Shown here: piece after piece, positions 2,061-63,813 of the stretch
How positions within the stretch are numbered: the first letter of the stretch is position 1
How the letters are laid out: the number at the start of each line of letters is the position of its first letter
Source of the DNA: Isoetes taiwanensis
Taxonomy: Eukaryota; Streptophyta; Lycopodiopsida; Isoetales; Isoetaceae
Direction: 5' to 3'
Length of the DNA: 64,000 nt
NCBI GenBank assembly: GCA_021234155.1
Contig: JAJEKV010000035.1
Coordinates: forward strand, 10,106,407-10,170,406
The notes under the pieces: generated by a model
What the model was told of the DNA's origin: nothing
The model's database searches: none
Seen by the model: only the letters and a program-made list of their open reading frames with translations
Position numbers and translations under genes: made by a program

Positions 2061-2100
2061 AAGATCTATTCGTGCGGGGATGGAAACTTCGCTTCGAGTA
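2004..2100. repeat. Short minisatellite, three imperfect units
   Basis: The motif tggaaacttcgc occurs three times with roughly 35-40 base spacing, next to the E1/E2 breakpoint at about 2102. Confidence 0.6.
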
Positions 2101-2805
2101 ATGTCTTGGAGGTGTCTTTTACTTGAATTCGCTCTTGCTTTTTCTCCCGAGACACTTCCAAAATGCAAAAATTTAACAGATTCGGTAACTATATGGGTCA
2201 AATTAAAAAGAAGACAGGCACAAAAGGTTGGAAGTTACCTTGTGACTTACATTCACGAAACGATTTGTTCAGATCATAACCTGATGCATCTGGCCGATTT
2301 GGCGATTGGTGGAGCATGACTTAATGCATCCGTTGATCCGCAGATTCTTGTCCGATTGGAGCACCTATTGGAGCTTGACTTGATGCACCTACCGATTTGT
2401 TGACATCTACTGATTTGTCTGACTTCCTGTAACCTGATGGATCTTCTGATTTGCCCGAGTTTCTATCTGTGTCTAATGCTTTCGAAGGGGTGTGAGTGTC
2501 TTGTCCCCCTAACTGACCACATTGTACATCTATATCTACAAAGTAGGGATGAAGAAGTAAGCTACATATCCCAATTGCATCAAACAAGACTTGGTTACCT
2601 TTGAGGGTAGAAAATAATTCCCTTTTTGGTGTGCTAGATGGACTCACATAGTCATTGCCACCAAGATGAACAGCTTAGACTGAATTAGTAAACGGCACCA
2701 TGCTCGCAAACCCGAATTGAATCACAATTGATTGTAACTATACTTTGGTTTTTTTTAACTAAGCTCCAGACTTTTTACTCTCTTTACGATGTTCCTGTTT
2801 TTATA

Positions 2806-3008
2806 TATCTAAAGTGTCCCCTAAAATGAGCGAGCGATCTCATCCCAGGGGGCACTTTAGATACACAAAACAGGAGAAGCAAAAGAGACTAAGCCAGCCA
2901 GGATCTTGTTTTATGTGGGCTTACTTACTTTTTCGAAGTTTCCTGCTTGAGGTATCTAATTCGCCACCTGAGTGAGCGATGTCATCCTAGGGGGCAAATT
3001 AGATACGA
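2806..3008. repeat. Two hairpin units in E1
   Basis: Two imperfect inverted repeats with arms tatctaaagtg/cactttagata and gtatctaattcgcc/ggcaaattagatac enclose a shared core with gagcgat-x-tcatcc. The same hairpin unit is present in several copies in E2 (45883-46715). Confidence 0.7.
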
Positions 3009-3894
3009 TAAACAGAAAACGAAGGAGACTAAGCCAGGCTTACTCTCTTTTCGAGCTACCTATAAGTGCTCACCTGTAAGTGCCTCAGTAGCTTGAAGTT
3101 GCTTTTGATCCTCCCTACTCACACCTAAGGCTTGTACCCATGCTGTAGAAAATTCATGACAAAGAATTCTCAATGCAATGTTGATTACAAATCCTGCAAA
3201 GTGAACATAAATTTGACAATGAGAATACAATTATACTAAGCACTTCGTGAATTTTGTTATGAAGTACCTCAAGAGGCTGAAAGGACATGGAAGATGGTAT
3301 TGGTGATCGCATTCAAAGAATCAAAGTTGGTAGTGGTTTCCCCATCCACCGGAGGATCTTGCCACGCAAATGGACAGCCACTACCATAATCTTCAGCCTT
3401 ATCAAGGTCTGGAAGTAGTGGATCCAAGACAAATAAAGGAAGACGGTCCTTGCAAGACGCGAACCTCTCTAACCTTGGTTCCAAAGACTTTCAATGTTTG
3501 TTGTTCCGCTTTCCACGCCGACAGATTAAGCTCCTCGATTTTTGTCTCCGCTCAAGTTCGGTAATAGTTCCTTCAAATTTCCTGTATCTTGGCATATAGC
3601 CCGAATACCGCCTCACGCATCGACTTGGTTTATCCTTAATCATTCCTTCCCATTTTTTTAAATCTTTATTCATCTTCTCGATTGCGAACTCAAGTTGCTT
3701 GAACCTTCATTTGTAGCACCTTCAGTGCTTTGATCACAAGTTTGCAACCTTGCCTTACACCAATCACTTCGATCTTGTAGAGTTGATCCATTCTCCCAAA
3801 GGTCCTGTTGAATTCATCCGAAAGTAATCCAAGGTTAGTACCACATGACACAACAGCACCCACTTTACACACCACAAATTCCATCATGACAAAC

Positions 3895-4240
3895 TTTGCA
3901 CCACAAATGGCGTCATATTCACCACATGTGGTGTGGCATGTGGCACCAAACAGAGTCCACATGCCACACCACATATGGCACCACAATGCACCCAAGGCAC
4001 CACATATGGCAATCCATTACTTCGCACCACAAATGGCGTCAAAGACCCCACATGTGGTGCAAAATGTGGATCCATAGTGGTGCCACATTAGACACCACAT
4101 GTGGCACCACAATGCAATGTAAGGCACCACATCCGGCAGCATCCACCACCCCATATGTGGCAGATAGCGTGGTGCAATATTTAGCGCAGCGAGCTTGGCA
4201 CCACATATGGCAGACAATCCACCATTCACAAGTATCACCA
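3895..4240. repeat. CACATGTG palindrome array in E1
   Basis: Irregular array built from caccacatgtggtg, atggcaccaca and gtggcacc modules. The 8-base palindrome cacatgtg and near variants (cacatatg) recur about every 20-60 bases. The inverse copy is at 45240-45625 in E2. Apparent ORFs across it on both strands are low-complexity by-products. Confidence 0.75.
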
Positions 4241-5425
4241 TATCAAACATCACATATGTATGACACTAAGTATAGAAACATATGGAAGCCAATTCACTAT
4301 TCAGAAAAGGTACCATGTTTGGTACTATATGTGACACTACATATGCTGAAATTATCCACCACAACTCGAAATTATCCACCACAACTTCGAAACTAGCAAA
4401 GACAAATTTCCTACACATAACTTACAACACACCCAAATGAAGAAGTAAGTGGTGTACCCGATTGTTCAAGCTTGCTAGACCTTCTTTGGAAAATAACGTT
4501 CCAATATTAAATTGCATCATATGGTGGTTCCAGAAGAAGAGGGTTGAAAAGTACCTATTTTTTCAGTGATTTTCCCCGAGATTCTTCTTACAGCTTTAGG
4601 AGGCTTGAATTGTGGCCTAGTCATTTCAAGAGAGGAAGCATCATCTGTGGCAGGTTGCTCTGCTTCCTCACTATTTGAAATGCTTGCATGCTTCCTCTTA
4701 CGTTGGGACGGAGAGGCTTCAGACCCTTTTTCTCTTAATCGTTGCCCGGAAACTCAACCAGGTTTATTTCTTTTCCTTTTGTGTGAAGGTAATACGCAAC
4801 AGCCATAGTCTGTGAGGCCATGCCTCCCCAGGCACACTTCCTGCCTGTGATTTTTTTGTAAAGGCACATAAATTCATTATACCTCTCCTTGCTCATATTC
4901 TTCAACCTGCATGATGAAACAAAACAATATTCTAAACAACAGAGAATCATGGGCATCCCCGAATCTAGAATGCAACCCACCAGAATTGGATTTTCCTAAT
5001 ACTTTCGGTCCCCAAACATACTCGATTTCTTCTTGTGTGGCGTAATGCTTTTCTTGCACTCAGACATTTCCTTGTAGGTGTATCCCGTGGGCATTCAAGT
5101 CCCAGATGATCGAGCCATTTAAGTGGATCGATCTTCTTGCCGAAATCGAAATGGTCTTGCGGATTAAGGGAGCGTGATCGAGTTTTGAGGGAAAATGAAA
5201 ATTCAGAATCAGAAATGGTCTTGCCGGATTAAGGGAGCGTGATCAGAGTTTTTGAGGGAAAATGATCGTGTACGTTGCTGAATAAGCCTGAATAAGACTG
5301 AAAGGACAAAATTTTGAATAAGTAATCATGTGTATTTTTGAAAAAATAACTCCCTCTCCCACTACAAATTCGGTAGTTCCCACCACACTTAGCACCCAAA
5401 AATGTGGTGCTAAAATGCACGTTTT

Positions 5426-5451
5426 TGTTCCACTACTACATGCTTTCTCCC
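5426..5451. repeat. E1 terminal inverted repeat
   Basis: This 26-base terminus reads outward as tgttccactactacatgc followed by tttctccc. The E2 termini at 43924-43949 and 55261-55286 differ from it at two positions. It marks the end of detectable similarity between E1 and E2. Confidence 0.75.
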
Positions 5452-42006: not shown

Positions 42007-42465
42007 GTGATCATCTCAGAGATGAATTTAAGAAGCAATCGCCATGTTGCCTTTCCTCCAAATAGAAATCCTGATTTTGTAGTTGGCAATGAACCACCAC
42101 CCCCACGTAGAAAGAATAGATCCTCCAGACCTCTGATTTCAGCCCCAAAGACTCCTAATGCTGGAAAAAAGATTGTTAGAGGACCTGCTAGAGTTCTTGG
42201 ACAAAGGAAGCTTTAGAATCTGCTATAGATGACATAGAAGATGGTGTGTTCTCCATAAGAAAAGCAGGTCTGCACTATGGTATTCCCCAGACCACTCTTA
42301 GAAACCATCTCTATGGCAAATCCAAGAATGAATTTGGTAGTGTTCCCAAAGCATTGACTGTAGAAGAAGAGAAATTATTTGTTGAATGGGCACTCAAACT
42401 TGCTGATGAGTGTCGTGCTGTAAACTTAGATATTATGAAGCAAAGGGTTGCTCAGATTAAGAGCA
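42007..42465 (+). pseudogene. pogo/Tigger-like transposase, N-terminal half
   Basis: Encodes a basic leader and then, after a frameshift near 42190, WTKEALESAIDDIEDGVFSI, RKAGLHYGIPQTTLRNHL and ALTVEEEKLFVEWALKLAD: the HTH_psq/CENP-B-like DNA-binding region that precedes a DDE_1 catalytic domain in pogo-type transposases. Homology stops after about KQRVAQI, where the family would continue into the PGRKWW block; that block is found at 61760, about 19.3 kb away. The simplest reading is one gene split by nested insertions. Translation then runs out of frame into the HGKG fragment. Confidence 0.8.
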
Positions 42466-43319
42466 TAAGATCAGAATGCACTGGAATTTCTTTGGCTCAG
42501 GACATGGGAAGGGCACACATGACGGAGAAGGAGCCATAGCCAAACTATGGCTCGAGGCAGAACAAAGAAAAAAGGATGGGAAAGTGATAAAAAATGCAGA
42601 AACTGCATGTGAGGTTCTTGAAGAGAAAATTTCTGATGTGGAAAGGGTATTTTGGAAGGTGTCTGACATTGACCGTTCCCAAAGATTTGATGTGCTCCCA
42701 GTGAAAGGGGCGCAATCTCTTCATTGCGTATCATCCATAGATCCAAATGATCCAACAAAGTTAATGTGTAGATCTCTTTCATGTTTTTGTAAGGCATGCA
42801 TCAATTCTGATTGGCCTGCTTGTGAGAATGCTGATGGGAGTTGAGAAAACTAGAGCCTACAAACAGGGGACAATGTTGAAGAAGATGGGTAGTGCAGGCG
42901 AGGACTTGTGGGCAAATGGCGTGGACAATGTGGATGAGACAAAGTCGCAGGTTGGAGATTATTTTGCATCATTCACATCCCCGACACAATTATGAAAGGG
43001 TCCCTTATTATCTCATCCAAAGGTACGTAAGAAACATGCCCTCGAAGAAGACACCAAGGATGACTATGGAAATGAATTTTATTGTGGTAATGAAGTTATA
43101 GCTGATAACTACTTTGAATTGATTCCTGGTTGCCATCAAAAGTACAAGCTTATTCAAGGAAAGAAAATTCTTGTCCATCCCGAGTCAGTAATTGGGGTGA
43201 GATTTCCATTGGAGCCAGTCAAACATAAGATTAAAGGTACATCTTATGCATATGAACTGACTAACTATTGGCATGAAATGTTGCTGGGAAATTTGACAGA
43301 GATTGTAGAATCTCTGTAA
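42466..43319 (+). pseudogene. HGKG-type transposase-like gene, 3' fragment
   Basis: Starts at about MHWNFFGSGHGKGTHDGEGA and continues with a KLWLEAEQRKKDGKV stretch, VFWKVSDIDRSQRFDV, a LMCRSLSCFCKACI segment and C-x4-C patterns to about 42842. After a break it resumes near 43020 and ends in KGTSYAYELTNYWHEMLLGN (stop at 43317). The same motifs occur in E2 on the minus strand (53575-52220). I recall similar uncharacterised proteins from transposon-rich genomes but cannot name the superfamily. His, Lys and Asp of HGKG-x2-DG may be functional. The fragment is plus-strand and abuts the pogo N-terminal half without a recognisable transposon end. Confidence 0.6.
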
Positions 43320-43499: not shown

Positions 43500-43886
43500 C
43501 AAGATTCAAGACTCAAGATTCATCCAGAAGGTCCTCGGCAATGGTCCTGTTCCCGAAAATTGTGAGAAGAGTGTCCAGGACAGCTGTTTGGAAGTTGGTG
43601 AAGTCTAACAGAAGCAAGACATGTGCTTCTCGCTTCTGTTGCCATTTATGATAGAGATTGGTAAAGTATGGTTTGAGGCTATTGAATCTCTAAACCTCAG
43701 CCCTTTTCAGCACTTTGTTGATTGCTTTTGCATGCACAACTTCCTGTTTAAGTTGAATGAGAATACTCTCTAGTTCTGCTTTAGATAATTGGGATTCCTC
43801 ATCTCCCTTGGCCGCTGCTACTCCCATAGCTCGATCCATGCTTCCAACATTGTTAAGTCTCCTCTGTGCATCTGTGTAGAACATCA
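43500..43886 (-). pseudogene. Gene Y, second exon (outer copy)
   Basis: On the minus strand an acceptor tgttctacacag (ending at about 43875-43887) opens an exon encoding a DAQRRLNN start, KAELESILIQLKQEVVHAKA and, after a break, EAHVLLLLDFTNFQTAVLDT. E2 contains a homologue at 49500-49920 with the same acceptor and the segments HVLVLLDFTNYSAKNL and IELKQ. The function is unknown; the first part looks like a coiled coil. The first exon lies at 55297-55385, separated by the E2 insertion in the intron. Confidence 0.6.
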
Positions 43887-43919
43887 TAAGCAATTGTTAG
43901 ATTAGGAACAAAAGCATGT

Positions 43920-43949
43920 TTAAGGGTGAAAGCATGTTGTAGTGGAACA
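43920..43949. repeat. E2 left TTAA + terminal inverted repeat
   Basis: TTAA at 43920-43923 is followed by the 26-base repeat beginning gggtgaaagcatgttgtag. It is the exact reverse complement of 55261-55286. Confidence 0.92.
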
Positions 43950-44089
43950 AAAACGTGCATTTTAGCACCACATTTTTGGGTGCTAAGTGTGGTGGGAACT
44001 ACCGAATTTGTAGTGGGAGAGGGAGTTATTTTTTCAAAAATACACATGATTACTTATTCAAAATTTTGTCCTTTCAGTCTTATTCAGGC

Positions 44090-44235
44090 TTATTCAGCAA
44101 CGTACACGATCATTTTCCCTCAAAAACTCTGATCACGCTCCCTTAATCCAGCAAGACCATTTCTGATTCTGAATTTTCATTTTCCCTCAAAAACTCTGAT
44201 CACGCTCCCTTAATCTGCCAAGACCATTTCTGATT
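44090..44235. repeat. Two-copy ~75-bp tandem repeat near E2 end
   Basis: The phrase tcaaaaactctgatcacgct followed by cccttaat and agaccatttctga occurs twice. E1 has the same pair at 5150-5260 in reverse orientation, so the duplication predates the split of the two copies. Confidence 0.7.
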
Positions 44236-45239
44236 TCTGGCAAGAAGATCGATCACGAAATGGCTCTGATCATACCGGACTTGAATGCCACGGGATACAC
44301 CTACAAGGAAATGTACAGGCAAGAAAAGCATCTTACGCCACACAAGAAGAAATCGAGTCTGTTTGGGGACCGAAAGTATTAGGAAAATCCACTTACAGGT
44401 GGGTTGCATTCTAGATTCGGGGATGCCCATGATTCTCTGTTGTTTAGAATATTGTTTTGTTTCATCATGCAGGTTGAAGAATCTGAGCAAGGAGAGGTAT
44501 AATGAGCCTTTACAAAAAAATCACAGGCAGGAAGTGTGCCTGGGGAGGCATGGCCTCACAGACTATGGCTGTTGCGTGTTACCTTCACACAAAAGGAAAA
44601 GAAATAAACTGGTTGAGTTTCTGGCAACAGTTAAGAGAAAAAGGGTCTGAAGACTCTCCGTCCCAACGTAAGAGGAAGCATGCAAGCATTTCAAATAGTG
44701 TGGAAGCAGAGCAACACGCCCGCAGATGATGCTTCCTCTCTTGAAATGACTAGGCCACAATTCAAGCCTCCTCAAGCTGTAAGAAGAATCTCGGGGAAAA
44801 TCATCAAAAAAATAGGTACTTTTCAACCCTCTTCTTCCGGAACCACCATATGATGCAATTTAATATTGGGCTGTTATTTTCCAAAGAAGGTCTAGCAAGC
44901 TTGAACAATCGTGTACACCACTTACTTCTTCATTTGGGTGTGTTGTGAGTTATGTGTAGGAAATTTGTCTTTGCTAGTTTCGAGTTGTGGTGGATAATTT
45001 CAGTTCCACAATGAGTATGTAGCTCAAATGTGTTCTGGAGACAGTCATATGGTGCCAATTATATGTTAATAATGTAGTTTGTAGCATATGTAGTGTCACA
45101 TATAGTACTAAACATGGTACCTTATCCGAATAGTGAATTGGCTTCCATATGTTTCTATACTTAGTGTCATATGTGATGTTAGATATGGTGATACTTGTGA
45201 ATGGTGGATTGTCCGCCATATGTGGTGCCAATCGCTAAT

Positions 45240-45625
45240 GCGCTAAATATTGCACCACGCCATCCGCCACATATGGGGTGGTGGATGCCCGCGGATGTGG
45301 TGCCTTCTTTGCATTGTGGTGCCACATGTGGTGTCTAATGTGGCACCACTATGGATCCACATTTTGCACCACATGTGGTGTATTTGACGCCATTTGTGGT
45401 GCGAAGTAATGGATTGCCATATGTGGTGCCTTGGGTGCATTGTGGTGCCATAGGTGGTGTTTCATGTGGCACCCGGTTTGGTGCCACATGCCACACCACA
45501 TGTGGTGAATATGACGCCACCACGGTGCCACATGCCACACCACATGTGGTGAATATGGCGCCATTTGTGGTGCAAAAGTTTGTCATGATGTAAAGTGGTG
45601 CCTGTTGTGTCATGTGGTACTAACC
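45240..45625. repeat. CACATGTG palindrome array in E2
   Basis: Inverse of the E1 array 3895-4240, with units such as cacatgccacaccacatgtg and gtggtgaatatg. Overlapping ORFs on both strands are by-products of the palindromic composition. Confidence 0.75.
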
Positions 45626-45736
45626 TTGGATTACTTTCGGTTGAATTCAACAGACACTGGGAGAATGGATCAACTCTACAAGATCAGAAGTGATTCAGTG
45701 TAAGGCAAGATCAGAAGTGATTCAGTGTAAGTCTGC

Positions 45737-46800
45737 TCAAGCTACTGAGGCACTTACAGGTGAGCACTTATAGGTAGCTTAATTTACATGCTAAGGGCCT
45801 GATGTAAGGGACAGATGCCAATTAGGATTAGTGGACTTCCTAATCTTTCACCCTGGCTTAGTCTCTTTCGTTTGTCCTGTTTGATGTATCTAATTTGCCC
45901 CCTAGGATGAGGTCGCTCACTCATTTTAGGTGGCGAATTAGATACATCAAGCAGAAACTTCAAAAGAGAGTAAGCCCAACTTAATCTCCTTCGTTTTTAC
46001 GTTTGATGTATCTAATTTGCCCCCTAGGATGACATCGCTCACTCAGGTGGCGAATTAGATACATCATGCAGGAAACTCGAAAAGGGAGTAAGCCCGACAT
46101 AAAACAAGATCCTGGCTGGCTTAGTCTCTTTTGCTTCTCCTGTTTTGTGTATCTAAAGTGCCCCCTGGGATTGCTGAATGCGGATTGCTGAATGCAGTCA
46201 CCAATACCATCTTCCATGTCTGCTCAGCCTCTTGAGGTACTTCATAACAAAATTCCTGAAGTGCTTAGTATAATTGTATTCTCATTGACAAATTTGCGTT
46301 CACTTTGCAGGATTTGTAATCATTGAGAATTGCTGTCATGAATTTTCTACAGCATGGGTACAAGCCTTAGGGAGGATCAAAAGCAACTTCAAGCTACTGA
46401 GGCACTTACAGGTGAGCACTTATAGGTAGCTTAGTTTACATGCTAAGGGCCTGATGTAAGGGACAGATGCCAATTAGGATTAGTGGACTTCCTAATCTTT
46501 CACCCTGGCTTAGTCTCTTTCGTTTGTCCCCGCTTTGATGTGTCTAATTTGCCCCTAGGATGAGGTCGCTCACTCATTTTAGGTGGCTAATTAGATACAT
46601 CAAGAAAACTTCGAAAGAGAGTAAGCACAGCTTAGTCTCCTTCGTTTTCTGTTTGATTTATCTAATTTGCCCCCTAGGATGACATCGCTCACTCAGGTGG
46701 CGAATTAGATACATCAAGCAGGAAACTCGAAAAGGGAGTAAGCCCGACATAAAACAAGATCCTGGCTGGCTTAGTCTCTTTTGCTTCTCCTGTTTTGTGT
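45737..46800. repeat. ~656-bp tandem duplication with a hairpin array in E2
   Basis: The block starting gctactgaggcacttacagg at 45737 recurs at 46393. Each copy contains hairpins with arms gatgtatctaatttgcc and ggcgaattagatacatc around a core with gatgacatcgctcactca (45883-45948, 46005-46065, 46537-46601, 46655-46715), plus truncated half-units near 46143 and 46796. E1 has only two such hairpins. Confidence 0.7.
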
Positions 46801-47499
46801 ATCTAAAGTGCCAAGTCAAGTCAAGCTCCAGTAGGTGCTCCACACCAATCTGCCAAATCAGCAGATGCATCAGGTTATGATCTGAACAAATCGTTTGGTG
46901 AATGTAAGTCACAAGGTAACTTCCAACCTTTTGTGCCTGTCTTCTTTTTAATTTGACCCATATAGTTACCGAATCTGTTAAATTTTTGCAGCTGGAAGTG
47001 TCTCAGAGAAAAAGCAAGAGCAGAATTCCAAGCAAAAGACACCTCCAAGACATTCTGAAGCATATATGTGTCTTGCTATATGTGTCTTTGTAAAGCATGT
47101 TGTGGCTGCAGTAATACGAGACTTGGACATACTATCCCAATGCAAGGTGAGTTCGTAAATTTGAAGGTATTACTCATCCAATGTGAGGCCTGATATGTTT
47201 GTTGCAGGGTGTACCAATTTCTAGTTCTTGAAATTTGTTGGACACGAGAATGATGATTGATGTTGTGAAGCACAGTTGCTGTAGTAATGAAGCTGAGGTT
47301 GACAGATCAATAGATCTTTACTTGTAATCACATGTTTGTATTATTGTAACCAAAGAGGTTATTCTTGTAACCTATTCTTTCATTGACACTCTAATGTACA
47401 TTGTTGTATACTATTGTATACAATAGACTTTTCTGGCTGACCAGAGCAACACTGCGGTGGAGTTCAAATCTCGGAAGAAATTGATGTATTCAAAGATTC

Positions 47500-48215
47500 A
47501 TGACAATGTGGTGTTACATGTCGTGATAGATGTGGTGATGCAAATGGTGCATGTGGTGAATCATGTGGTGCGTTTGGTGAACCATGTGGTGAATCATGTG
47601 GTGAATCATAGGTGGCATGCTGGAGCTTACGTGGCATGTTGGAGCCTAGGTGGCATGTTTGAGCCACCTTGGCGTGTTTGAGCCTAGGTGGCATATTGGA
47701 GCCACCTTGGCATGCTTGAGCCTTTACATGACCTTTGTTACATGTTTGACTTTCATTGACCAACATGTTTGGTGATGCAAATGGTGCATGTGGTGAATCA
47801 TGTGGTGCATTTGGTGAATCATGTGGTGAATCATAGGTGGCATGTTGGAGCTTCGTGGCATGTTGGAGCCTAGGTGGCATGTTTGAGCGACCTTGGCATG
47901 TTGGAGCCTAGGTGGCATATTTGAGCCACCTTGGCATGCTTGAGCCTTTACATGACCTTTGTTACATGTTTGACTTCCATTGACCAATATGTTTGGTGAT
48001 GCAAATGGTGCATGTGGTGGATCATGTGGTGCATTTGGTGAATCATGTGGTGAATCATGTGGTGAATCATAGGTGGCATGTTGGGGCTTACGTGGCATGT
48101 TGGAGCCTAGGTGGCATGTTTGAGCCACCTTGGCATGTTGGAGCCTAGGTGGCATGCTTTTCGGTCTATGTGGCATGCTTGACCCTTTATCGTGGCATGT
48201 TGGAGCCTAGGTGGC
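47500..48215. repeat. Satellite-like array, ~224-237-bp units
   Basis: Three units, each starting ggtgatgcaaatggtgcatg (47534, 47771, 47995). Each has a gtggtgaatcat section followed by several gttggagcctaggtggcat repeats. E1 positions 1-100 are the reverse complement of the first unit's start. Minus-strand ORFs (47464-47880, 47724-48176) with His-Asp-Ser-Pro repeats are read through the array; I do not regard them as genes. Confidence 0.8.
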
Positions 48216-48391
48216 ATGCATGCAAGCGTCCCTTTCCTCTTCTCGCCTCATTCCCAAAATCGTTATGGATGCCTACGATTTGCATCCCTTTATTCCCAAA
48301 ATTCTGCCCCTCTGACTTCATTCCGTCCCCATCGTCTATTCCGCCATCTCCTTCACTCCTTCCTCATTCCGTCCATCTCCTTCACTTCGCC

Positions 48392-48716
48392 ATGGCCAAG
48401 TTCAAGACTACACTCAGCGGGAACACTATCCCGCCATTGTGCACGCTCCTTCGCAGCCAAAGACACGGTCGAATCCGTGGCTTCTGCTGGAGGATCCGCG
48501 GTCTTCCTCCACCAGAGGGAGGCCGCCCTTACGATGGTGGCCAAGTTCACTCCACCGAGAGGTGGAGAAGCTCATCATGGATCATCAAAGGCGTAAACCG
48601 TTGCGGGTGCTTCGAGTGGGTGCATGCGGGTTATGATGACGGGGAGCGACTCCTAAATGAAGATGTATGCTGCGGGGGCGACCTCCATATAGAGCTCAAG
48701 ATGGCCCCACCATGAT
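48392..48716 (+). pseudogene. Small MAKFKTTL gene, E2 copy
   Basis: I do not recognise the family. An ATG in good context (ttcgccATGgcc) opens MAKFKTTLSGNTIP, but the frame breaks soon after; an alternate frame carries VEKLIMDHQ. The paralogue at 56766-57076 is better preserved. Both are followed by the shared 3' sequence with aatccacggtttcaattttt and agtccttgt. Confidence 0.5.
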
Positions 48717-49499
48717 TAGTTTAGATTTGTATTGTAATCCACGGTTTCAATTTTTTTTGGCAATAGTCCTTGTGACTATTCTTTGTAAAACTTTTCATTA
48801 ATGATGAACTTGTTTTGCAATAGTCCTTGTTTTGCAATAGAACTTGTTTTGCTTTAAGCTGTTCTCACGAGTTTCCATTGTTCTTTCGGTTAGCTGAACT
48901 TTTGTCATTAATTATAAAATGCAAACAAGGAATTTGAAGGTGCAGAATCTATGATCCACACTAACAAAAATATGGTAACCAAAATCGACAAATAGGAAAA
49001 TATGAGATGGGTGGCTCGGGTTCAAAAAGAAATAGAGTTCAAAAAGAAACTAAAAGAAAAACGCACGAATTCCACGAAGCAAAAGTTAGTGGCCTTGCAA
49101 GAATCTTTGCACAAAGCGCTCAATGAATTTTGGCCTCATATCAATTCGGGGACCTAATTTGGGATCCATATATTGCTGTCCACCAAAATCAGTCAAGATA
49201 CTATCAAGAATCCCCGAGCCATTCCATTTTTACGTAGGGTCAAAAAATGGTCAATGCCCCCGCTGATTATGGTGACATCGTGGTGAAAAGCGTGGTGAAA
49301 AAATGTGGTGAAAAGCGTGGTGAAGGCGTGGTGATGCAAGCGTTGTTTTTATATTTCAAAGGGAGAAAAATACATATGGATATCTACCACACCGGTAGAA
49401 TAGTTCATACTTCTTATGAAATGAAGTATGCGTAAAAATCGAGGAAAACTATAACCTGAGCTTCTAGTATTATCAAAATGCATTAGAGATATAATAATA
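48717..49499. other. Spacer in E2 with a short TGTGGTG block
   Basis: The 3' flank of the MAKF gene is shared with 57080-57560. At 49258-49340 gtggtgaaaagcgtggtg-type repeats occur. The ORF 49247-49435 crosses them and is not supported. Confidence 0.4.
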
Positions 49500-50312
49500 G
49501 TCAAGTTTTGAAGAGGTTAATGATGACATACGATTCTTGGGCCTCAATCCGGATCACGCATTGTGAGATCTGTAACTCTTGTTCTTCAAGTATGTCCAAG
49601 ATTTCATCAAGTTTTTTGCTGAATAGTTGGTGAAATCCAGCAACACTAAAACATGAGCTTCTGGATTTACGCTCCCACTTATGATCTGATTCACAAAGTA
49701 TTGTCTCGAGGTTGTTGTGTGTCTCCATGCGGTGGCCTTGTTGAGCACTTTTAATGGCTGAAGCATGGATCATTTCTGCTTTAGTTCGATGAACATATCC
49801 TCTTCCTCAAGCATGGGGAGAGCTGCGAACTCATCCTCGAGAATCATAATGCCACCCCAGAACCACAGCCGGGCTGCACCGGCTACACTAAGTCTCGGCG
49901 CATCTGTGTAAAACAACATCATTAGTAATAAGAAAGGCAACCGCCTATCACCGCCTTGGCTTCTAATTCTTTAAGCCCATCGAGAATTAACCTATGTTTT
50001 AAGCCTAGAATACCTCGAATTCATGGGTCCTCCGCTCCTCTAATATCCGCCTCGTTCTGGTTTATTTGCTCGGTATAGGTCTTACCGGATCTTGGCGCAT
50101 TTAGGCCGCGAAATTGTTTGTGCCGTGTTCTCATACGTTTTCTTCGCCATAGGCTTGGATCGGGATAAACCAATATGCGCATGCAAAACTAGATTTAGGG
50201 TTTCCCTCCAATCTTTCTGCCTGACCGACTTTTGAATGATTGAACTTGCATTTGATGTGGCGGTTTCGGTGGTGGGTTTCATCATGTGTTTTCTCTGTCC
50301 CATTCCGTTCAT
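49500..50312 (-). pseudogene. Gene Y, E2 copy
   Basis: The minus strand has an upstream exon (50312-50012) encoding MNGMGQRKHMMKPTTETATS and later RSKPMAKKTYENTAQTISR, a donor GAG|gtattc near 50010, a ~90-base intron containing TTAA, and an acceptor ttttacacag at about 49912. The second exon encodes MILEDEFAAL, IELKQ, a HVLVLLDFTNY segment (with frame change) and LEEQELQISQCVIRIEAQES, stopping at 49501. It matches the outer gene Y (43500-43886 plus 55297-55385). The function is unknown; one or two frameshifts are needed. Confidence 0.5.
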
Positions 50313-50429
50313 CCTTAATGTAATTTTTTACATTGTGTCACTTTCACCACAATCAATTAAGCGGTAAAGATTGAAGAGTGAAGATTTATATTAAACATAT
50401 AAAATTATTACATAAGGTTACATTTCAGA

Positions 50430-51291
50430 TTATATACACTTGTTTTCATTCACGTGGGTCTATCAAAAGAATCGGGTCCAGCTCCTCCTCGTCATCTTCT
50501 ATGATCACCGGATCGGTGTGGCCGGGTCAGCTTCCCGACCTATTTGCTCCCATTCGGAGGGAAAGCAAAAACCATAATGGTGGAGTGTTACCAAAGCGAG
50601 AATAGCGGCTTCTCCATGTCCATCACCGCAAGGCCTTGTGATGATAGTACATATCCACGAAGTGAAGGAATTGGTCCTCTGTAAACAACCTATCATAACA
50701 AAGAGGAACACATTTTAGCGTAAAGGCTTGGTAGCCATTAAGCGAAAAAGGTCTCAACCTTGCAGATCCTGGTCAATAGTATGAGGAACGGGCCAAAGAT
50801 CTTTGGTGTGTAAAATTTCATTGGAGGCGAGTAAGTTGAGAGGTCCGAGGGCGTGGTGTACAATTCAACCTCACGGTGAGTTTTCGTACATTTCTCGTGG
50901 TCATATTCTCATCCGGTGAATAGAGTAATTTACGTATCTGAGCATGTCCATCCATTACGCATGGCTGAAAATCGGGACAACAACGCCTAGGTATTATGGG
51001 CTCTTCTTCTCTCGGTCACATTGTCCCATTCGGCACTCCATCGTTTTTGCGGCATCAAGAGGTGAAGTTGGCCATGTCTGCAGTATAGTAATTTCTTTAA
51101 GTAAAATCGTATTCCCACCCAGCTGTGGTATGGTAAATCGCTTCCCAAGGACTGCTTCTTGTAATATACGCTCCCGAGCTAGCTTTGTAATAAACCAGTA
51201 AACTTCGCTTCGGAGCAAGAAGAATGGCATCTCGGGCCTTTTGGGTTGCCGAGGTCATTAATTTTGCCATCCCATAATGATTTTTTCGCAC
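50430..51291 (-). other. Unrecognised minus-strand coding-like segments in E2
   Basis: Pieces such as RLFTEDQFLHFVDMYYHHKA (about 50690-50630) and ARDAILLAPKRSLLVYYKAS (about 51255-51180) look coding-like but match nothing I know. They may be 3' exons of the HGKG gene or a separate gene between it and gene Y. Confidence 0.35.
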
Positions 51292-51414
51292 GGGCCGTCG
51301 AAAAAAGGGTGATGAGAGGAATTGATGGGACCGAGAGAATTTAAGGAAAAGGAAAGTATTTCATTAGAAAAGGCTGTTGAAAGGATCTATCCGTGTCGGG
51401 AGAAGAGGCAGAAA

Positions 51415-51505
51415 AGTGAAACACGTGGTGAAACATGTAGTGAAACACATGTGTCACCACATGTGGTGAAACACATGTGGTGAAACATGTGGTGAAACAT
51501 GGTGA
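51415..51505. repeat. gtgaaaca/CACATGTG short array
   Basis: Repeats of gtggtgaaacatgtg, with central cacatgtgtcaccacatgtg forming palindromes. Confidence 0.7.
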
Positions 51506-52219
51506 ACACGGGGCATGTTACATTAGGGACATCAAAATACAATTACATATTACATCGAAGCAAACATATTACATTGAAACAAGGGACATCAAAATACAAT
51601 TGAGCATGGAATTGGGTTTCTTATATTATTCCCAAACAAGGCAAGACACAACAACATATTCAAAATTTCTGAATCATTTCCTAACTTTTAAGAATGTGTT
51701 CAGCTATTCTTCATCGGACATGCTATCTTCATCGGATAAAAAGCTTCGGGCAAGTTTTCTAGAATCTTTTCCTCATCTGCTGGTCTAGCACATGCAGATT
51801 CGAGCACCTTTCTTGATCTGTTGCATGGGAACTCGAATAGCACAAATTTGAGAAGAGAATACAAGTGACTTTGGCTCGTTTGTCCAACAACTCATACATC
51901 ACACAGTGACGGGAGGCTTCTTTCTATAGTAAATGCCCTCCACAGCGGTTTCACCTCTCATAAACAAGTTTCCGTTCTGCTGAAGTCATTTTCAACTTCA
52001 AATTTTGGCTTGGTGCATAGCAACATCCAAAATCTGATCCTCCTCGTTCCCTTTAGGTGCGACAAGCTAATTTGTCTCCTTCTCTAAGTGCTTACGCAGA
52101 GTACATTTTGCCAAGGTTAGTATAGTGGCCTGGTAGACTTGCGGGTCTCTTCCACATCCGCATGAACATTGGAGGATGGTTCAAGCGACTTCTAAAGGTC
52201 CCATTCATCTACATACAAT
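51506..52219. other. E2 interior, no gene named
   Basis: A tandem phrase gggacatcaaaatacaatt occurs twice (51525, 51582). The remainder may be the 3' part of the HGKG gene on the minus strand, but no motif was recognised. Confidence 0.35.
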
Positions 52220-53575
52220 TAAGTTCTCACACATGTCCCATTTTCCATCAAACAATTCTTTGCAAAAACATGATAGCTTTCTGGTATGTAGGCGTGTTGG
52301 ATTTCTGTCTTGAATCCATGGACTGAATGAATTTGCACGGTTTTGGAATTGTCTCTACCCCAAACTTTTTCTGTTGATATCCTCGGGTTTTATTTCCCAG
52401 TATCTCAGAACTTTTCTTCCATTTTCAATCCACTTTCGGATGTACCACATTGAAATTGTTTTTCGCAATTTTCACCACATCATGGGCATTATCTAGTTTA
52501 ATGTCGGGATGTTTAAAAATTTATGAACCTCATTATCCATCTTTTCAATTCTGCTGCCTTCCCATCATGTTCACCTTTTCCATGGTTTGATCCAAAGAAG
52601 TTCCACATCATGTTGACCTCTGTATCACAAAAATTTGTACCTTCCAACAAAATAAAATGATGCGGCTGCTTTGAATTGTGATGCGACACCATCTGAAAAT
52701 ACATAGTCTTTGTTTGGGGACATTGCCTTTACGCTTTAAATTACTCAAAATGTTTCATAAAACAATGTTGAACAAAAAGTGTGTCATGTTCCTATCATCA
52801 GACACATAGTAGTGTGTTTCCTTCTCAATGGTGTGCAATGCGTGGATCAACACGATAGGTTATTTGAACAAATATAGTTATCACGGTTGTTGACCCAGCG
52901 CATGGACTGAACTTCATTACGCTCCTTAAAAGTATAATTCTCTGCCCGAAGTCAACCACGGATAGGTAAGCATCTCGGGCAAGTTATCAAGGAGTTCTTT
53001 ATGCTTGGCACGCACGCCACTTATATCACGAAGTTGTGTAAAGGAAAATTTGGAAGCTTCTCCAACATTTTGTTCACCGATTGGAAGACTTGCGGTTTCA
53101 TTGTGTTGGTGAGCGAGCTTAGACTTCTTCTTTGCCATCTCTGAATCTGAGTTTTTCATAGTCTAGGTATTCCCACTTCACCATGCCACTATCACTAGAT
53201 TGTTCATGTGGGCGGATAGGGAACTTCTTAATCCCACACTCTTTACACTCACCCGAATGCATTCCCTCTTATGGTAAGGTTGGAAGCTAGTTTTCTCACA
53301 TAAAATTCCACGCCCACGGACTTCTTGTGCTACTTATTTTGTATTCAGGGCATGCATTCACCATGTATGTCGCACGCAAAGGCGACAAGTGCATTTCGCG
53401 GCTTTTTGGGTGCTTAGTTCTCATACTATTGAAGCCATCTATTAGCATCTGCATTCTAACATGGTATATCTGGCGGCAACTATTGAAGTCCTTTAATTTT
53501 ACAACAAACCATGGTTTTACTTTTCAAACATCCCCTCTTTTGATCATAACACTAGGATGTTCCGTCTTGAATTTC
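52220..53575 (-). pseudogene. HGKG-type transposase-like gene of E2
   Basis: Candidate transposase of the element. Minus-strand pieces in order: FKTEHPSVMIKRGDV and KPWFVVKLKDFNSCRQIYHV (53573-53440); GECKECGIKKFPIRPHEQ and MVKWEYLDYEKLRF (53265-53150); FSFTQLRDISGVRAKHKELL (about 53050-52985); VNMMWNFFGSNHGKGEHDG (about 52620-52560); and LSCFCKELFDGKWDMCEN (about 52275-52225). The order of Cys/His motifs, the HGKG-x2-DG signature and the terminal CFC-x-C block parallel the copy at 42466-43319. The catalytic role is inferred, not known. Frameshifts separate the pieces. Upstream basic ORFs (54331-54125, with PKKKRV) could be an N-terminal exon. Confidence 0.55.
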
Positions 53576-53634
53576 TGAACAATTGCAAACGCAAGGAAGA
53601 TAACAAGGTGATCGGCATATTTATTGCACACTAC

Positions 53635-54125
53635 ATTTTCCACCACACTTTAGGCACCACATAGCATATATTACAGGACATTCATCTTACACCTCCTTAT
53701 TCACCACACTAGGCACCACAAGCATATATTACATAATTTATTGTACACCATATTTTTCACCACACTAAGCACCACATAGCATATATTCTGGGACATTCAT
53801 CTTACACCTCGTTATTCACCACACTAGGCACCACATAGAATATATTCTGCATTTTTTACACCATATTTTTCACCACACTAGGCACCACACACTAGGCACC
53901 ACACTGGACACCACACTAGGCACCACACCATGTTATTCACCACACTAGGGACCACATAGCGTATATTCTGACATTTATTTTACACCATGTTATTCACCAC
54001 ACTAGGGCACCACATAGCATATATTACGACATGTATTTTACACCATGTTATTCACCACACTAGGCACCACAAAGCATATATTGACACGGCATTTATTTCA
54101 CACCACGTTGCCTCACCACGGCAAT
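53635..54125. repeat. CACCACACTAGG satellite, ~55-60-bp units
   Basis: About eight imperfect units of caccacactaggcaccacat followed by agcatatatt and a tail ending caccatgttatt. A denser run of caccacactaggcac without the tail lies at 53870-53925. Confidence 0.8.
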
Positions 54126-55260
54126 TACATATCACAAGCAATCACTAACCACATACCACATACCACATTAACAATAAAAATGTGGTGAAGATGAAGAAAA
54201 TGAAATAACCCAGTGATTCTTCCGGATAGTGAGTGGCATGATCCTCTCTTACATTTAGTTCCAATCTTGAACTTAACATCCTTTGCATTTGGAGAGACCC
54301 TCTTTTTTTTAGGTCCAAAATTGCTGCACAAGTTCTATGGCGGTGGGGGAATTGCATCCGCTCTTCTAACTCTTTTGTACAAAACCCATTTCCCCCCTTT
54401 GCAATCTATCTCTTCCCTCTTCAATTTTGCTTTGGTAAGATTCCTAGGATGAACACCCGGCCAGTTTACCAAAACCCCCAGAAGCATGAGGGATTAGCAC
54501 TTTGGTATTAATGCTTCCTCTTCTGGCCATAGCAAGGCAACTACTCTTGGTCTGCTAAACCGTCATTCTTTGTTGAGACTTCTTCACAAGTTGAATGGAA
54601 GCCACGAGGTTCTTTGACCACAATGCTCTTGGCTTGCAAATCTTTTCGACTCTTAAGCCAAGTCTGTTGTCCATTGTGTCATCCTGCTTGAGATAATCTA
54701 GTAAAACCTCTTTCTTATCATTTGTTAGACAAGCCTTTAGTGGTGCTATGAAATGAAGATAACAATTTTAATACCATCAGAGCGCCTAGTAGAGGCCGTT
54801 CCGGTGGATCCTCCCTCTAGATGCAATTTTTTGCTAATTCTTCTTTAGCTTCCCTTTGTCTTTTTCCTTTGGCGTCTTTTATGATCCCGTCTTGTTAAGG
54901 TTCTCTTTCTCTTACATTGCTCGGTTTGAGATTTTAGGCGATTTGCTTCCAAATTAAATGATTGAAGGTATGAACCTGGATTGATCCACAACCGGATTAA
55001 AGCGCCATAGCCGTGTGCTTCAGGAAAGGCGGGTGGGTGTCGTGGGTTTAGAAATCGGGTTCGGTGGAGATTGGATTGGGGCCGGGTGGCGTAGGAAATG
55101 GAATGGGGCGGGTGGCGTAGGGAATTGGGTTGTTGCGGTTCAAGAAATGATTGAATCCGGGCAAAGACATGCACTAGAAGCCAAACAAACATTTAAAATC
55201 GCACCACAAATTTGATATCTCCCACCACATTTTTAGGGGGGATAGGGGGGACACCCAGGG
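54126..55260 (-). other. E2 right subterminal region
   Basis: Minus-strand ORFs at 54125-54357 and 54845-55192 are basic; neither has a recognisable domain. A short duplication ggcgtagg-aatggggcgggtggcgtagg lies near 55088-55125. CACCACA motifs recur at 55201-55228 close to the terminus. Confidence 0.35.
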
Positions 55261-55290
55261 TGTTCCACTACAACATGCTTTCACCCTTAA
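55261..55290. repeat. E2 right terminal inverted repeat + TTAA
   Basis: Exact 26-base inverse of 43924-43949, followed by TTAA at 55287-55290. Confidence 0.92.
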
Positions 55291-55296
55291 GAATAG

Positions 55297-55385
55297 GAGT
55301 ACCTCTGAACTCGTGACTGCCTCTCCGTTTGATTTTGTTCAATTGGTTTCCCTGTTCGGCATTGATCTCCTCAAGAATCGGGTGC
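55297..55385 (-). pseudogene. Gene Y, upstream exon (outer copy)
   Basis: On the minus strand the sequence encodes ILEEINAEQGNQLNKIKRRG and then HEFR, ending at GAG|gtactcc, which aligns with the donor GAG|gtattc of the E2 gene Y. Removing E2 and one TTAA leaves an intron of about 65 bases to the acceptor at about 43887. The plus strand also has an open frame here (SELVTASPFDFVQLVSLFG, ending at gtgagt), but the paralogous splice sites favour the minus strand. Confidence 0.55.
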
Positions 55386-56765
55386 GCCAGGTGAGTTTGC
55401 ATTTGAATTGGGGATATGGATTGTGATCTAGTCGCTCGATCTCCTCCCCGCCATCGGAATCGACCGGTCCACCGGGTAAAAAAAGGAATTTTTATCCCTG
55501 TCTATTCCCTTCTCCCCTGTTTCTGATATGGCTCGTAGCATGCCAATGATTTGTTCCTTAACCAATGATTTGTGCCAATGATTTGTTCAACATCTTTCCC
55601 ACTGTCCTCTTTTTCTGACTCAATTGGCCAATGGTTGATGCTGGCATATATCCCACAAGCCTAGCTCAAATGAAAGGGCTATACTCAATGAGGAATATTC
55701 CTTTCAATATAATAAGGAATATTCCTTGTAAGTATGGGTGCACTTAAACAAACTAAAGAATATTCCTTTGAAGGTAATAAGGAATATTCTTGATAACTAG
55801 GCACTAAGGAATATTCCTTTCAATGCAAAAAGGAATATTCCTTTCAATGTAATAAGGAATATTCCTTGTAACTATGGGTGCAGTTAAACAAACTAAAGAA
55901 TATTCCTTTGAAGGTAATAAGGAATATTCTTGATAACTAGGCACTAAGGAATATTCCTTTCAACGCAAAAAGGAATATTCCTTTCAAGGTAATAGGAATA
56001 TTCCTTGTAACTATGGGTGCACTTAAACAAACTAAAGAATATTCCTTTGAAGGTAATAAGGAATATTCCTGATAACTAGGCGATAAGGAATATTCCTTTC
56101 AATACAATAAGGAATATTCCTTTCAAGGTAATAAGGAATATTCCTTGTTATCTCTATATTGTTGACTCACGCTTTACCAAACACAATATGCATAGGTACA
56201 CAATATGCCTTAACATAATCCATTCATTTGGCATTTGTTGATTTGGCAATTGTTGATTTGGTAACATGTGGAACATTGAATGCATGTGGGATATTTGAGC
56301 CCATTACTAAAAAAGGGTGGACTAGGATTACATCTTGGGCCGAGTTATGACCGGAATGGCGAAGATTACAAGCCAGCGAGCCATAACTTTTCAACATCTA
56401 ATCTCTATCCACACTTATCAATGAAGCAGCAAAACCCTATTTATATATGCGCACGATTTTTGTGATATATGCATGTGGGATATTGCTAACTTTGTGTTAG
56501 GGTTGTGCTAACTGCATACCAAGCAATTGGTCTCATAATATGGTTCAACCTATACATTTTACATTTGCAAAAATATTGAGGTGGGTGGATCGGCTCCCGA
56601 GGTGTGAAATCGTATGCATGGATACATCCCTTTCCTCTTCTGCCTAATTCCCAAAACAAAATCGTATGCATGCAAACATCCCTTTTATTCCCAAAATTCT
56701 GCCCTGCAGCTTCATTCCGTCCATTCCGTCCCCATCGTCTATTCCGCCATCTCCTTCACTCCGCC
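55386..56765. other. Spacer with GGAATATTCC tandem array
   Basis: No gene seen. The array at 55670-56150 is listed separately. ORFs at 56280-56465 and 56486-56671 show no recognisable domain. Confidence 0.4.
55670..56150. repeat. ~140-bp tandem array carrying GGAATATTCC palindromes
   Basis: The anchor tatgggtgca-x-ttaaacaaac recurs at about 55733, 55873 and 56012 (period 139-140). Each unit holds four to five copies of the palindrome ggaatattcc or one-base variants, spaced about 25-40 bases. Confidence 0.85.
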
Positions 56766-57076
56766 ATGGCCAAGTTCAAGACCACACTCCGCAGGAACAC
56801 CATCCCGGCCATTGTGCCTGCTCCTCCCCCGCCAGCACGGTCCTCCTCTTTCTCCGGAGAATCCGTGTCTTCCCTCGAGGCCACCGGTTCTGATCGAGGT
56901 ATGGTTCCTCCACCGAGGTGGAGAAGCTCATCATGGATCATCAGTACATCGCCGTTGCGGGTGATCGTCAGTGGGTGCATGAGGCTTACCTCCGATGAGG
57001 AGGCGACTCCTCGAAATGAAGATGTATGCCATGGAGGGCGACCTTCATATAGAGTGAAGATGGCCCTCAAGATCAA
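56766..57076 (+). pseudogene. Small MAKFKTTL gene, second copy
   Basis: The ATG at 56766 (ccgccATGgcc) opens MAKFKTTLRRNTIPAIVPAP, a proline/serine-rich stretch and FSGESVSSLEATGSDRG; a second frame carries VEKLIMDHQYIAVAGDRQWV and EAYL. Its paralogue is at 48392. I do not recognise the family. A frameshift near 56910 is implied if both parts belong to one protein of about 110 residues. Codon use is GC-rich compared with the flanks. Confidence 0.5.
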
Positions 57077-57679
57077 GCCTTGTTTTTGTAATCCACGGTT
57101 TCAATTTTTTGGTAATAGTCCTTGTTGTGACTATTCTTTGTAAAAAGCTTTTTTTAAATCAAATGAACTTGTTGCAATAGTCCTTGTGACTCCATTTTTT
57201 TTAAAAAGCTTTTTCATTAATGACAGAACTCCTCTTCTCTCAAATTTGTGACTATTTTTTTGCTTTAATTGTTCTCTAAGTTTCCACTTTGTTCTTTTTA
57301 GTTAACTCTGAACTATTTCTATCCTTTTCTCAGATAGATATAAGAAACATGTTTGGTACTTAGTTTGCAACTCAAGTTTTTGGTGCAACTCAAGTTAATG
57401 ACGTTTTGTCATTAATTATAAAATGCAAAGTACAATTCTTGAAATAGTATACCAAAACAAACATTAAAGCCAACAAGGAATTTCAAGGTCTTGAATTTAT
57501 GATCTGCACACTAGGAAAACCAGTTTATGGTAACCCGGCAGCCAATAGGAAAATATGTTCGGTATTTTTCTTTAAATGCATCTTGAAGCATCACGAAGCA
57601 TCACCCAAAAATTTCGGATGTTGGTCCAAAACCTCTTGAACAATACCATCTACACTAAAACCTGTTGGGGTGTGTATAC
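57077..57679. other. Shared 3' flank of MAKF copies
   Basis: The sequence parallels 48717-48990 in order (ccacggtttcaattttt, agtccttgtgact, cattaattataaaatgcaaa, aataggaaaatatg) with insertions. No gene is seen. Confidence 0.5.
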
Positions 57680-58235
57680 CACACCAAACCATGCACCATA
57701 CCATGCCCCACACTATCATATTCACCCGACGAGGCACATCCCACCACACACCACACCATTCACCACACACCCCACCACACACCACACCATTCACCACACA
57801 CCATACACCATAGACCATACACCAACTATCATATTCACCCGGGCGAGCACATCCCACCACACACCACACATTCACCACACCCCACCACACACACCCCCAC
57901 CACACATCACACCATTCACCACACACCATACACCATAGACCATACACCAACTATCATATTCACCAGAACGAGCACATCCCACCACACACCACACCATTCA
58001 CCATACTCCCCACCACACACCACACCATTCACCACACACCATACACCAAATGGTGGAGTGTGGAGCAGTGGTGGAGTGTGGTGGTGGGGGGTGGTGGTGT
58101 GGTGTGTGGTGGTGGTGGGGTGTGGTGGTGGGGGTGGTGGTGGTGGTGTGTGTAGTGGTGTGTGGTGGTATGATGTGGTGTGGTAGAGTGTGGTGGGATG
58201 TGGTGGTGTGGTGTTGTGGGGTGGTGTGGTAAAAG
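57680..58235. repeat. CCACA satellite with strand switch
   Basis: 57680-58048 is C-rich (caccacacaccacaccattc units; ~100-110-base higher-order copies beginning tcatattcacc at about 57716, 57829 and 57954). At 58050 it flips to G-rich gtggtgtgtggtgg sequence up to 58235. The two halves are roughly complementary and could form a long imperfect hairpin. Long ORFs across it are compositional. Confidence 0.85.
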
Positions 58236-61747: not shown

Positions 61748-63813
61748 TGACAATTAACAGATCCACATGCTTCAAAAATGGATTACCAGGAAGGAAGTGG
61801 TGGAAACATTTTAGGGGCAGACATCCAGAAATATCTTTCAGGACACCCCAGTGCATTGAGTTAACAAGGATCAAAGCAATGACTACATCAAACCTTAAAA
61901 ATTTCTATTCCACTCTTAGAGCTGTTTATGATGAACACAATTTTGATGCTTCAAGAATCTGGAACTGTGATGAATCAGGAGTTCAGGCAGGGTGTCGAAC
62001 TGGAATGAGAGTGGTTGCAAAAAAAGGGCAAAGGAATGTTACTGAACACATTCCTAAAAGTAGGGAATGGATGACAGTTCTTGTATGTGTGAATGCATCA
62101 GATAAGTTAACAGATTTACTTTCTCTTATTTAGGGTTTTTGGTGTAATAGTGACTAACATTCTTTGTTTGTATGCAATAGGTAACAAGATTCCTAATCTA
62201 TATGTGTTTAAGGGCAAAAGAATGAGGGATATAAACCTCATTTCTGGTTGTGAACCTGGGGCTTCAATGGCTTTTCAAAAGAAAGCCTGGATTACTGATC
62301 AATTGTTTGAAGCATGGCTAGATCACTTTAGGAACAATGTTCCTAGAGGGGTCAGCAAGGAAAAGCCACATCTACTCATTTGTGATGGGCGTGGCAGCCA
62401 TGTGAACATGGCCACAATTATGAAAGCAAGAGAAATTGGATTGCACATTGTCCAATTACCTCCTCACACATCCCATAGGTTACAACCTTTGGATGTGTCA
62501 TGCTTTCGTCCTTTTAAATTAGCATTTAGGAAACTAAGAGCTCATTTCATGCATAGTAAGTATGGAGTGGAGCCTACAAAGGAAGATCTGGCTACAATTG
62601 TGTCAAATTCATTGATTCAGGCTCTTAGTTCTAGTAATATTTGTGCCGGCTTCTCAAAAACTGGCATATGGCCTTGGGAACCTTCCAGGGTTCAGCCAGA
62701 ACCTTTGGCTGAAGAAATGGAAGCTGAGAGATTAGCTGCTCGTATGCCTAACTTCCTACTTGTTAAGTAATGTCTATTGAGTCATGCATTAACTTAATAT
62801 TCTACTTTCCTTGCAGGTGGAACTGCTGCCACACGAGATGAAGGTAAGTTAAATTAAATTAAATCCTCAATGATTTTATTTTTGTTGCATGGATTATTTT
62901 AAGTACACTTGTTGTCTTGAATTTAGGTGGTGCTGCTGCTATTAATAGACCTGCTACAGATCAAGAAAATGATGTTGCAGATGAATCATATGGAGATGAT
63001 TCACATGTTCAGGATATATTACATGAGGAGCAGGTAGCTGCAATTGATGGAGATGCAACAGAACTAGAAGCACCAAATGAATGTGCAGCTGAAGTAACTG
63101 CAGATAGTAGCTTAGTAGCATTAGCAGATGTTGCAATAGGTCTTCCTCCAAATGCACCTTCCACAAACAACAATGAATTCAGAAAACTTAAACCTAAGAG
63201 ATTAAGGTTGCCTGAGAGTTTGAAGGGAAGGCTTTTAGTAACATCTGATGAGATGGTTAGGGCAAAGTTGGAGCATCAAAGGCAATGTGAAAAAGCAGCT
63301 AGGATCAGGCATGAACAGTTGGAAGAGAAAAAAAGAGTGCAGGCTTAGAGAAAGGAGGCCAAGGAGGCTGAAAAGAAGAGAAGAGAAGAAAACAAGGGGC
63401 TAAGGGAAGAGAAAAAGGCCGCTTTAGAGAAGGAAAGAATTGAGAGACCTGAACCTTCGTCTAGACCCAAAAGAACAAGAAAGAGGACTTTGAAGATGAT
63501 TGAATATGAAGAGGACGATTCTGATGAGTGTTACCTTATTGCAGGGAATCAGGAGGCACAAGTGGAAGAGAATCCAGAAATGCAAGTTGGTGAAGGATGT
63601 GAAAGTCAAGGACTAGATCTGTTCGTGGACATTTCTCTACCTACCATCCAAGTAGATCAGATGGATGATGAGGCAGACTTGTGCAGGAAGAAAAGAAGGA
63701 TGCATTCTCCTAATGAAAGCAGTGATGAATCTGATGCACCAAAAAGAATTAAGGCATTAGATGACTTATATAGAGCAGAGGCATATGCTCATTTTCAGAG
63801 TTTAGGATTATAA
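61748..63813 (+). pseudogene. pogo/Tigger-like transposase, DDE half
   Basis: Pogo transposases cut and paste DNA through a D-D-D catalytic triad. The frame starts with CFKNGLPGRKWWKHFRGRHP (link region), then IWNCDESGVQAG (first Asp), an intron to about 62179, GNKIPNLYVFKGKR, HLLICDGRGSHVNM (second Asp), LPPHTSHRLQPLDV (third Asp) and FSKTGIWPWEPSRV. Two more introns follow (ends at cttgcag 62817 and gaatttag 62926), then a long charged, coiled-coil-like tail to 63813. Defects: the first-intron donor reads ATAAGT where GTAAGT is expected (62101-62107), an in-frame TAG at 63346-63348, and separation from the DNA-binding half at 42007. The triad itself is intact. Confidence 0.87.

Follow-up and report, generated by a model that had tools for sequence, protein, structure and literature searches.

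The window analysed here, 64,000 nucleotides of Isoetes taiwanensis DNA, contains an element, E2, which has TTAA on both sides and appears to carry in its interior the very site into which it inserted. This raises the questions of what kind of transposon E2 is, whether TTAA has a role in its target choice and how an element can come to hold its own empty site. We suggest, with a probability of about 0.82, that E2 inserted recently and belongs to a high-copy family of large cut-and-paste transposons with terminal inverted repeats, that it is nested, and that Sola is the most likely superfamily.

Ends and copies of the E2 family

E2 had been delimited at base resolution in a preliminary description by perfect 26-bp inverted termini and TTAA, and an inverted-repeat search of the window recovered the same arms, 43920-43949 and 55261-55290, as 30 nt with 100% complementarity, each arm comprising the 26-bp terminus and the adjoining TTAA, which is self-complementary (Table 1). 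E2-family termini start with GGGTG and close with CACCC. The genome-wide search for the terminus that had been proposed covered 1,658,258,908 bases in 1110 contigs, and it returned 659 exact copies of GGGTGAAAGCATGTTGTAGTGGAACA compared with 0 for the reversed control pattern, which excludes a chance origin of the terminus; with up to three mismatches 838 places are found. Left-type ends, in which the terminus is followed by AAAACG, occur at 293 places and right-type ends, in which CC follows, at 313. Among the places listed, 53 left/right pairs less than 30 kb apart face each other correctly and none wrongly, and the correctly facing pairs have a median length of 11,425 bp, outlying values including 297 bp. 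E2 is a transposon with a real terminal structure, and its family is present in high copy, with about 300 copies that have exact ends.

Two further copies may be mentioned. At G000:C908:4010835-4011131 left and right ends lie 297 bp apart, apparently forming a miniature derivative of the family. Within the window itself, positions 1-5451 are occupied by a second copy, E1, which lies on the minus strand, is 94% identical across the first kilobase and has a terminus altered by mutation (GGGAGAAAGCATGTAGTAGTGGAACA); the opposite end of E1 falls beyond the window.

Table 1. Coordinates of E2, its internal parts and the adjoining outer repeat (positions in the window;., no strand)
Feature	Position	Strand	Basis or remark
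Outer repeat, related transposase-type gene, 3' part	42461..43316	+	34% identical to L078; high copy
Gene Y of outer repeat, left of insertion	43516..43896	-	
Left target site duplication, 4 bp (TTAA in E2)	43920..43923	.	Single-TTAA empty sites at C1105, C1059
Element E2, 11363 bp	43924..55286	+	Repeat search, copy alignment; family median 11.4 kb
Left 26-bp terminal inverted repeat GGGTGAAAGCATGTTGTAGTGGAACA, left-type end, then AAAACG	43924..43949	+	Repeat search, genome terminus counts
Left-hand gene remnant	44258..47160	+	Alignment to copies
TGTGGTG-rich repeat block	45295..45577	.	
TGTGGTG-rich 224-bp repeat block	47506..48218	.	
Diverged gene Y homologue, including homologue of the site where E2 inserted	49504..50188	-	Alignments
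Downstream reading frame, conserved among copies	50449..51340	-	
Transposase candidate, exon 2, DDD motifs; reading frame broken in the assembly	51707..53523	-	Copy alignments, consensus
CACCACA-rich repeat block in intron of transposase candidate	53619..54119	.	
Transposase candidate, exon 1, basic N-terminus	54176..55008	-	Copy alignments, consensus
Right 26-bp terminal inverted repeat, right-type end; read inward, CCC after GGAACA	55261..55286	-	Repeat search, genome terminus counts
Right target site duplication, 4 bp	55287..55290	.	Empty sites
Gene Y of outer repeat, right of insertion	55291..55501	-	

Target site duplication and landing locus

Both ends were read for 14 non-redundant insertions, nine from a set of ten pairs (overlaps being counted once) and five others including E2, and at least 13 of them have an exact 4-bp duplication. 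All ten paired insertions are exact (TGGT, GTTG, AGAT, CAAC, AGAG, GATT, CTAA, GAAT, TTAC and CTTG). A second set comprises eight elements, three of which (C33, C64 and C67) correspond to the insertions L017/18, L023/24 and L028/29 of the first set; among the other five, four show exact duplications, namely CATA, ATTG, CACT and, in E2, TTAA, and C674 is mismatched with TTTG/CTTG, the one inexact case of the 14. The inner two bases of the duplications are A or T at 53 of 64 positions (p=6e-5), whereas the outer two are not AT-rich, which gives the pattern NWWN; apart from this the duplicated 4-mers are for the most part unrelated.

These results bear directly on TTAA, which the preliminary description had taken as a feature of the target that might always be duplicated, a claim that by its own account would fall if most insertions had other flanks. 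Most of them do, GTTG, CAAC, GATT, TGGT and AGAG being among those sequenced, and no duplication read other than that of E2 is TTAA. Directly before the 659 exact ends TTAA stands only 6 times, compared with 3.6 expected from its frequency in the window, and these ends reject a TTAA specificity of the family; the TTAA borders of E2 are a coincidence of one copy. We therefore give next to no weight to the reading that E2 is a TTAA-specific element of the piggyBac or Kolobok type. Kolobok is defined by a TTAA-specific 4-bp duplication, and its RR...YY termini are shared by the GGG...CCC ends of E2 (PMC9587614), so that the termini, the duplication length and the TTAA on both sides of E2 would all suit this reading; however, TTAA is not required in the E2 family, and because the flanks are mostly other 4-mers both superfamilies, as defined by TTAA, are ruled out. 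In addition, C/DxxH is absent between the second and third acidic residues in alignment A1 of the transposase candidate described below, which speaks against Kolobok, and the profile search of the coding parts that had been proposed for piggyBac gave no DDE_Tnp_1_7 match in Pfam.

When the flanks of E2 were joined with one TTAA and searched against the genome, 40 scored matches were obtained, at least 38 of them nearly end to end and with 97-99% identity across about 300 bp, and the two that were read over the junction (C1105 and C1059) match base for base with a single TTAA. These matches, at least 38, are true empty sites of the landing locus, and since the joined flanks match so many places end to end, E2 must lie within one copy of a high-copy repeat. 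This outer repeat contains a transposase-type gene, about 34% identical to the transposase candidate of E2 itself, which is convergent with gene Y and about 1.1 kb from it. The transposase-type gene has 5990 candidate places in the genome and gene Y 2535, and the overlap of the two lists places them together at at least 33. Gene Y, for which Pfam and PDB searches gave nothing significant, can on these copy numbers not be regarded as a single host gene interrupted by E2, and it proves to be a gene of a high-copy transposon: E2 is a transposon nested in a related high-copy transposon. Around this locus, an HTH_psq domain (42192-42536) adjoins the transposase-type gene of the outer repeat, and positions 56614-57557 are 74% identical to 48216-48830 in E2 and probably form a further part of the outer repeat, as probably does a CACCACA/TGTGGTG block just downstream (57742-58230).

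It had also been stated that E2 contains its own empty target site. This holds in so far as a homologue of the interrupted sequence is present inside the element: E2 at about 49880-50140 aligns collinearly over the insertion point of the joined flanks with a score of 79.2, compared with 52.6 +/- 7.3 for shuffles, 1 of 1000 of which reaches that score, and when the flanks were aligned singly to the E2 interior, the left was equalled by 0 and the right by 14 of 1000 shuffles. However, this homologue is a diverged cargo paralogue, and the real empty sites are the copies of the outer repeat. Y-like cargo is present in the other E2-family copies examined too, and the paralogue is therefore a property of the family; the Y proteins of the outer repeat and of copy C554 are 53% identical. 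With Y cargo inside and a landing place in the Y gene of an abundant transposon, E2 therefore appears to hold its own empty site. It is very unlikely that it does so through targeting of Y-type genes. Although E2 has both a Y gene around it and a Y homologue inside it, the flanks of the other insertions share nothing beyond the weak NWWN pattern, and the great abundance of the outer repeat means that chance insertions into it are to be expected.

The transposase candidate and other internal parts

From 23 copies we derived a consensus of 882 aa, with approximate splice sites and an intron full of CACCACA repeats, for a gene that, in 14 of 29 copies checked, begins 1.8-2.6 kb inside an exact right end and is read towards the interior. 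This gene is the predicted transposase gene of the E2 family. The conserved blocks in alignment A1 are VDFAENY, SDDxxHDTLFVQHC, FSDGxASQFK and WNxFGSNHGKGEHDG, and the order VDFAENY / FSDG / HGKGxxDG is RNase-H-like. Three aspartates (D, D, D) are invariant in this alignment, and since the outer relative keeps the D of its HGKGTHDG but has lost the neighbouring acidic residues, a DDD triad is indicated. Comparison of the subfamilies gave a pS of about 0.8-0.95, which is saturated, vs a pN of 0.2-0.35, a pattern of strong purifying selection on the candidate between subfamilies. The 882-aa protein has no Pfam or PDB match, exon 1 searched alone against the same collections gave nothing significant, and prokaryote genomes, viral contigs, plasmids and phages yielded no relatives.

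The reading frame of the candidate is interrupted in E2, and the quality of the assembly has to be considered here. The group-A copies differ from their own consensus at 13% of positions at CpG, at 7.6% within 4 bp and at 2.1% beyond 16 bp. As about half of the differences are transversions and 1-bp indels are abundant (L045-L057), deamination alone is insufficient as an explanation, and the clustering is likely to reflect base-calling error at methylated CpG in this Nanopore assembly. Because of such CpG-linked errors the frameshifts of E2 are no proof of decay; they may in part be Nanopore errors, and we have set aside the notion of E2 as a pseudogene. The same caution applies to other such copies in this assembly, whose apparent decay may partly be base-calling error at CpG.

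The copies differ in which internal parts they retain. Group-A copies of about 10 kb have the left gene and are without exon 2 of the transposase candidate, whereas in E2 and C357 the left gene is mostly deleted and the candidate is retained; both types seem to be pieces of a single, larger ancestor. At the position of the left gene, the longer group-A copies carry a phosphatase domain of the NIF type, together with a stretch that resembles Ulp1 protease. The former, detected in copy C790 (L052/L053) as PF03031 (NIF/CTD-type phosphatase; E=2e-9), is probably a captured piece of a host gene. The likeness to Ulp1 consists of the motif QSDCWSCGP only, the stretch having no significant Pfam or PDB match, and a majority consensus of five group-A copies was too noisy for clean left-gene frames. 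Nothing significant was found in Pfam or PDB for the downstream frame. The genes in the window are of plant type (dirigent, legume-type lectin, helicase), and a fragment of a DDE_1 (pogo-like) transposase lies at 62111-62767 (E=8e-20).

Superfamily placement and proposed model

The preliminary description had found no fit to CACTA, MULE, hAT or PIF, and this is borne out, as CACTA, MULE and hAT each fail on the features tested. CACTA/EnSpm elements have CACTA/CACTG termini and a 3-bp duplication (PMC10741241), so that a giant element of this type, which the large size, the captured sequence and CACTACAA inside the terminus might suggest, is refuted by ends of the form GGGTG...CACCC and a duplication of 4 bp; in addition, no Transposase_21-type match was found in Pfam, and we consider this reading exceedingly improbable. 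In having large copies with gene fragments, such as the NIF phosphatase domain of group-A, the E2 family resembles Pack-MULEs and gene-capturing CACTA elements, but it is unlike them in duplication length, termini and transposase. hAT and MULE elements have 8-bp or 7-12-bp duplications and a C/DxxH signature, whereas the duplication here is 4 bp and the signature is absent. Ginger elements, which have TG...CA termini and an integrase-like transposase, were likewise set aside, as the E2 termini are GGG...CCC and no rve match was found in Pfam.

The Sola superfamily, which has been described as having a DDD transposase, 4-bp duplications and a size of 2 to over 15 kb and as being found in moss (PMC10741241), and which has been reported in ferns (PMC6786969, PMC6890710), is the most likely home of the E2 family. 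The 4-bp duplication is borne out by 13 exact cases among 14 insertions and by the empty sites, and the family further resembles Sola1 and Sola2 in its predicted DDD triad, its size and its variable terminal sequences. Sola2 elements of Dictyostelium have AT-rich 4-bp duplications, and one reported Sola2 transposase has 888 aa compared with 882 aa in our consensus. A difference is that E2-family elements carry large cargo, the Y gene and CACCACA repeat blocks. All the features checked are compatible with Sola, and the placement, made from described features, is probable, not proven. The Pfam search of the candidate gave no Sola match, which says little, since to our knowledge Pfam holds no Sola model.

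Alternatively, the family could belong to a not-yet-described superfamily of DDD transposases other than Sola, as the lack of matches to the 882-aa protein in Pfam, PDB and the prokaryote, phage, plasmid and viral collections might suggest. We regard this as unlikely, though deserving some weight: AT-centred 4-bp duplications, the predicted DDD triad and the size all fit Sola, absence from Pfam is a weak argument for the reason just given, and animals too have proteins with comparable motifs. Somewhat more doubtful still is the specific proposal that this very abundant DDD protein family, with its thousands of candidate places in the genome, defines such a superfamily, made up of large plant transposons that carry cargo and produce 4-bp duplications of the form NWWN.

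Under the model that we favour, the candidate transposase would bind the ends of E2-family elements, and perhaps also the TGTGGTG/CACCACA repeats, excise the element and insert it into target DNA cut with a stagger of 4 bp. Group-A copies of 10 kb, and perhaps E2 as well, would be examples of copies whose genes are deleted or damaged and which move in trans. E2 landed in an intron of the Y gene of an older transposon that is related to it and present in high copy, and since its family carries a diverged Y cargo, it holds a paralogue of its landing site through nested insertion and not through special targeting.

DNA transposons of lycophytes have been little described. For a young lycophyte family of transposons 10-60 kb in size, this analysis defines the ends to the base, the length of the duplication and a candidate transposase, and it shows that the family carries and spreads pieces of genes. 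If the family belongs to Sola, it would represent a large expansion of a superfamily that has been called uncommon in flowering plants; if it does not, the E2 family would be a new superfamily.
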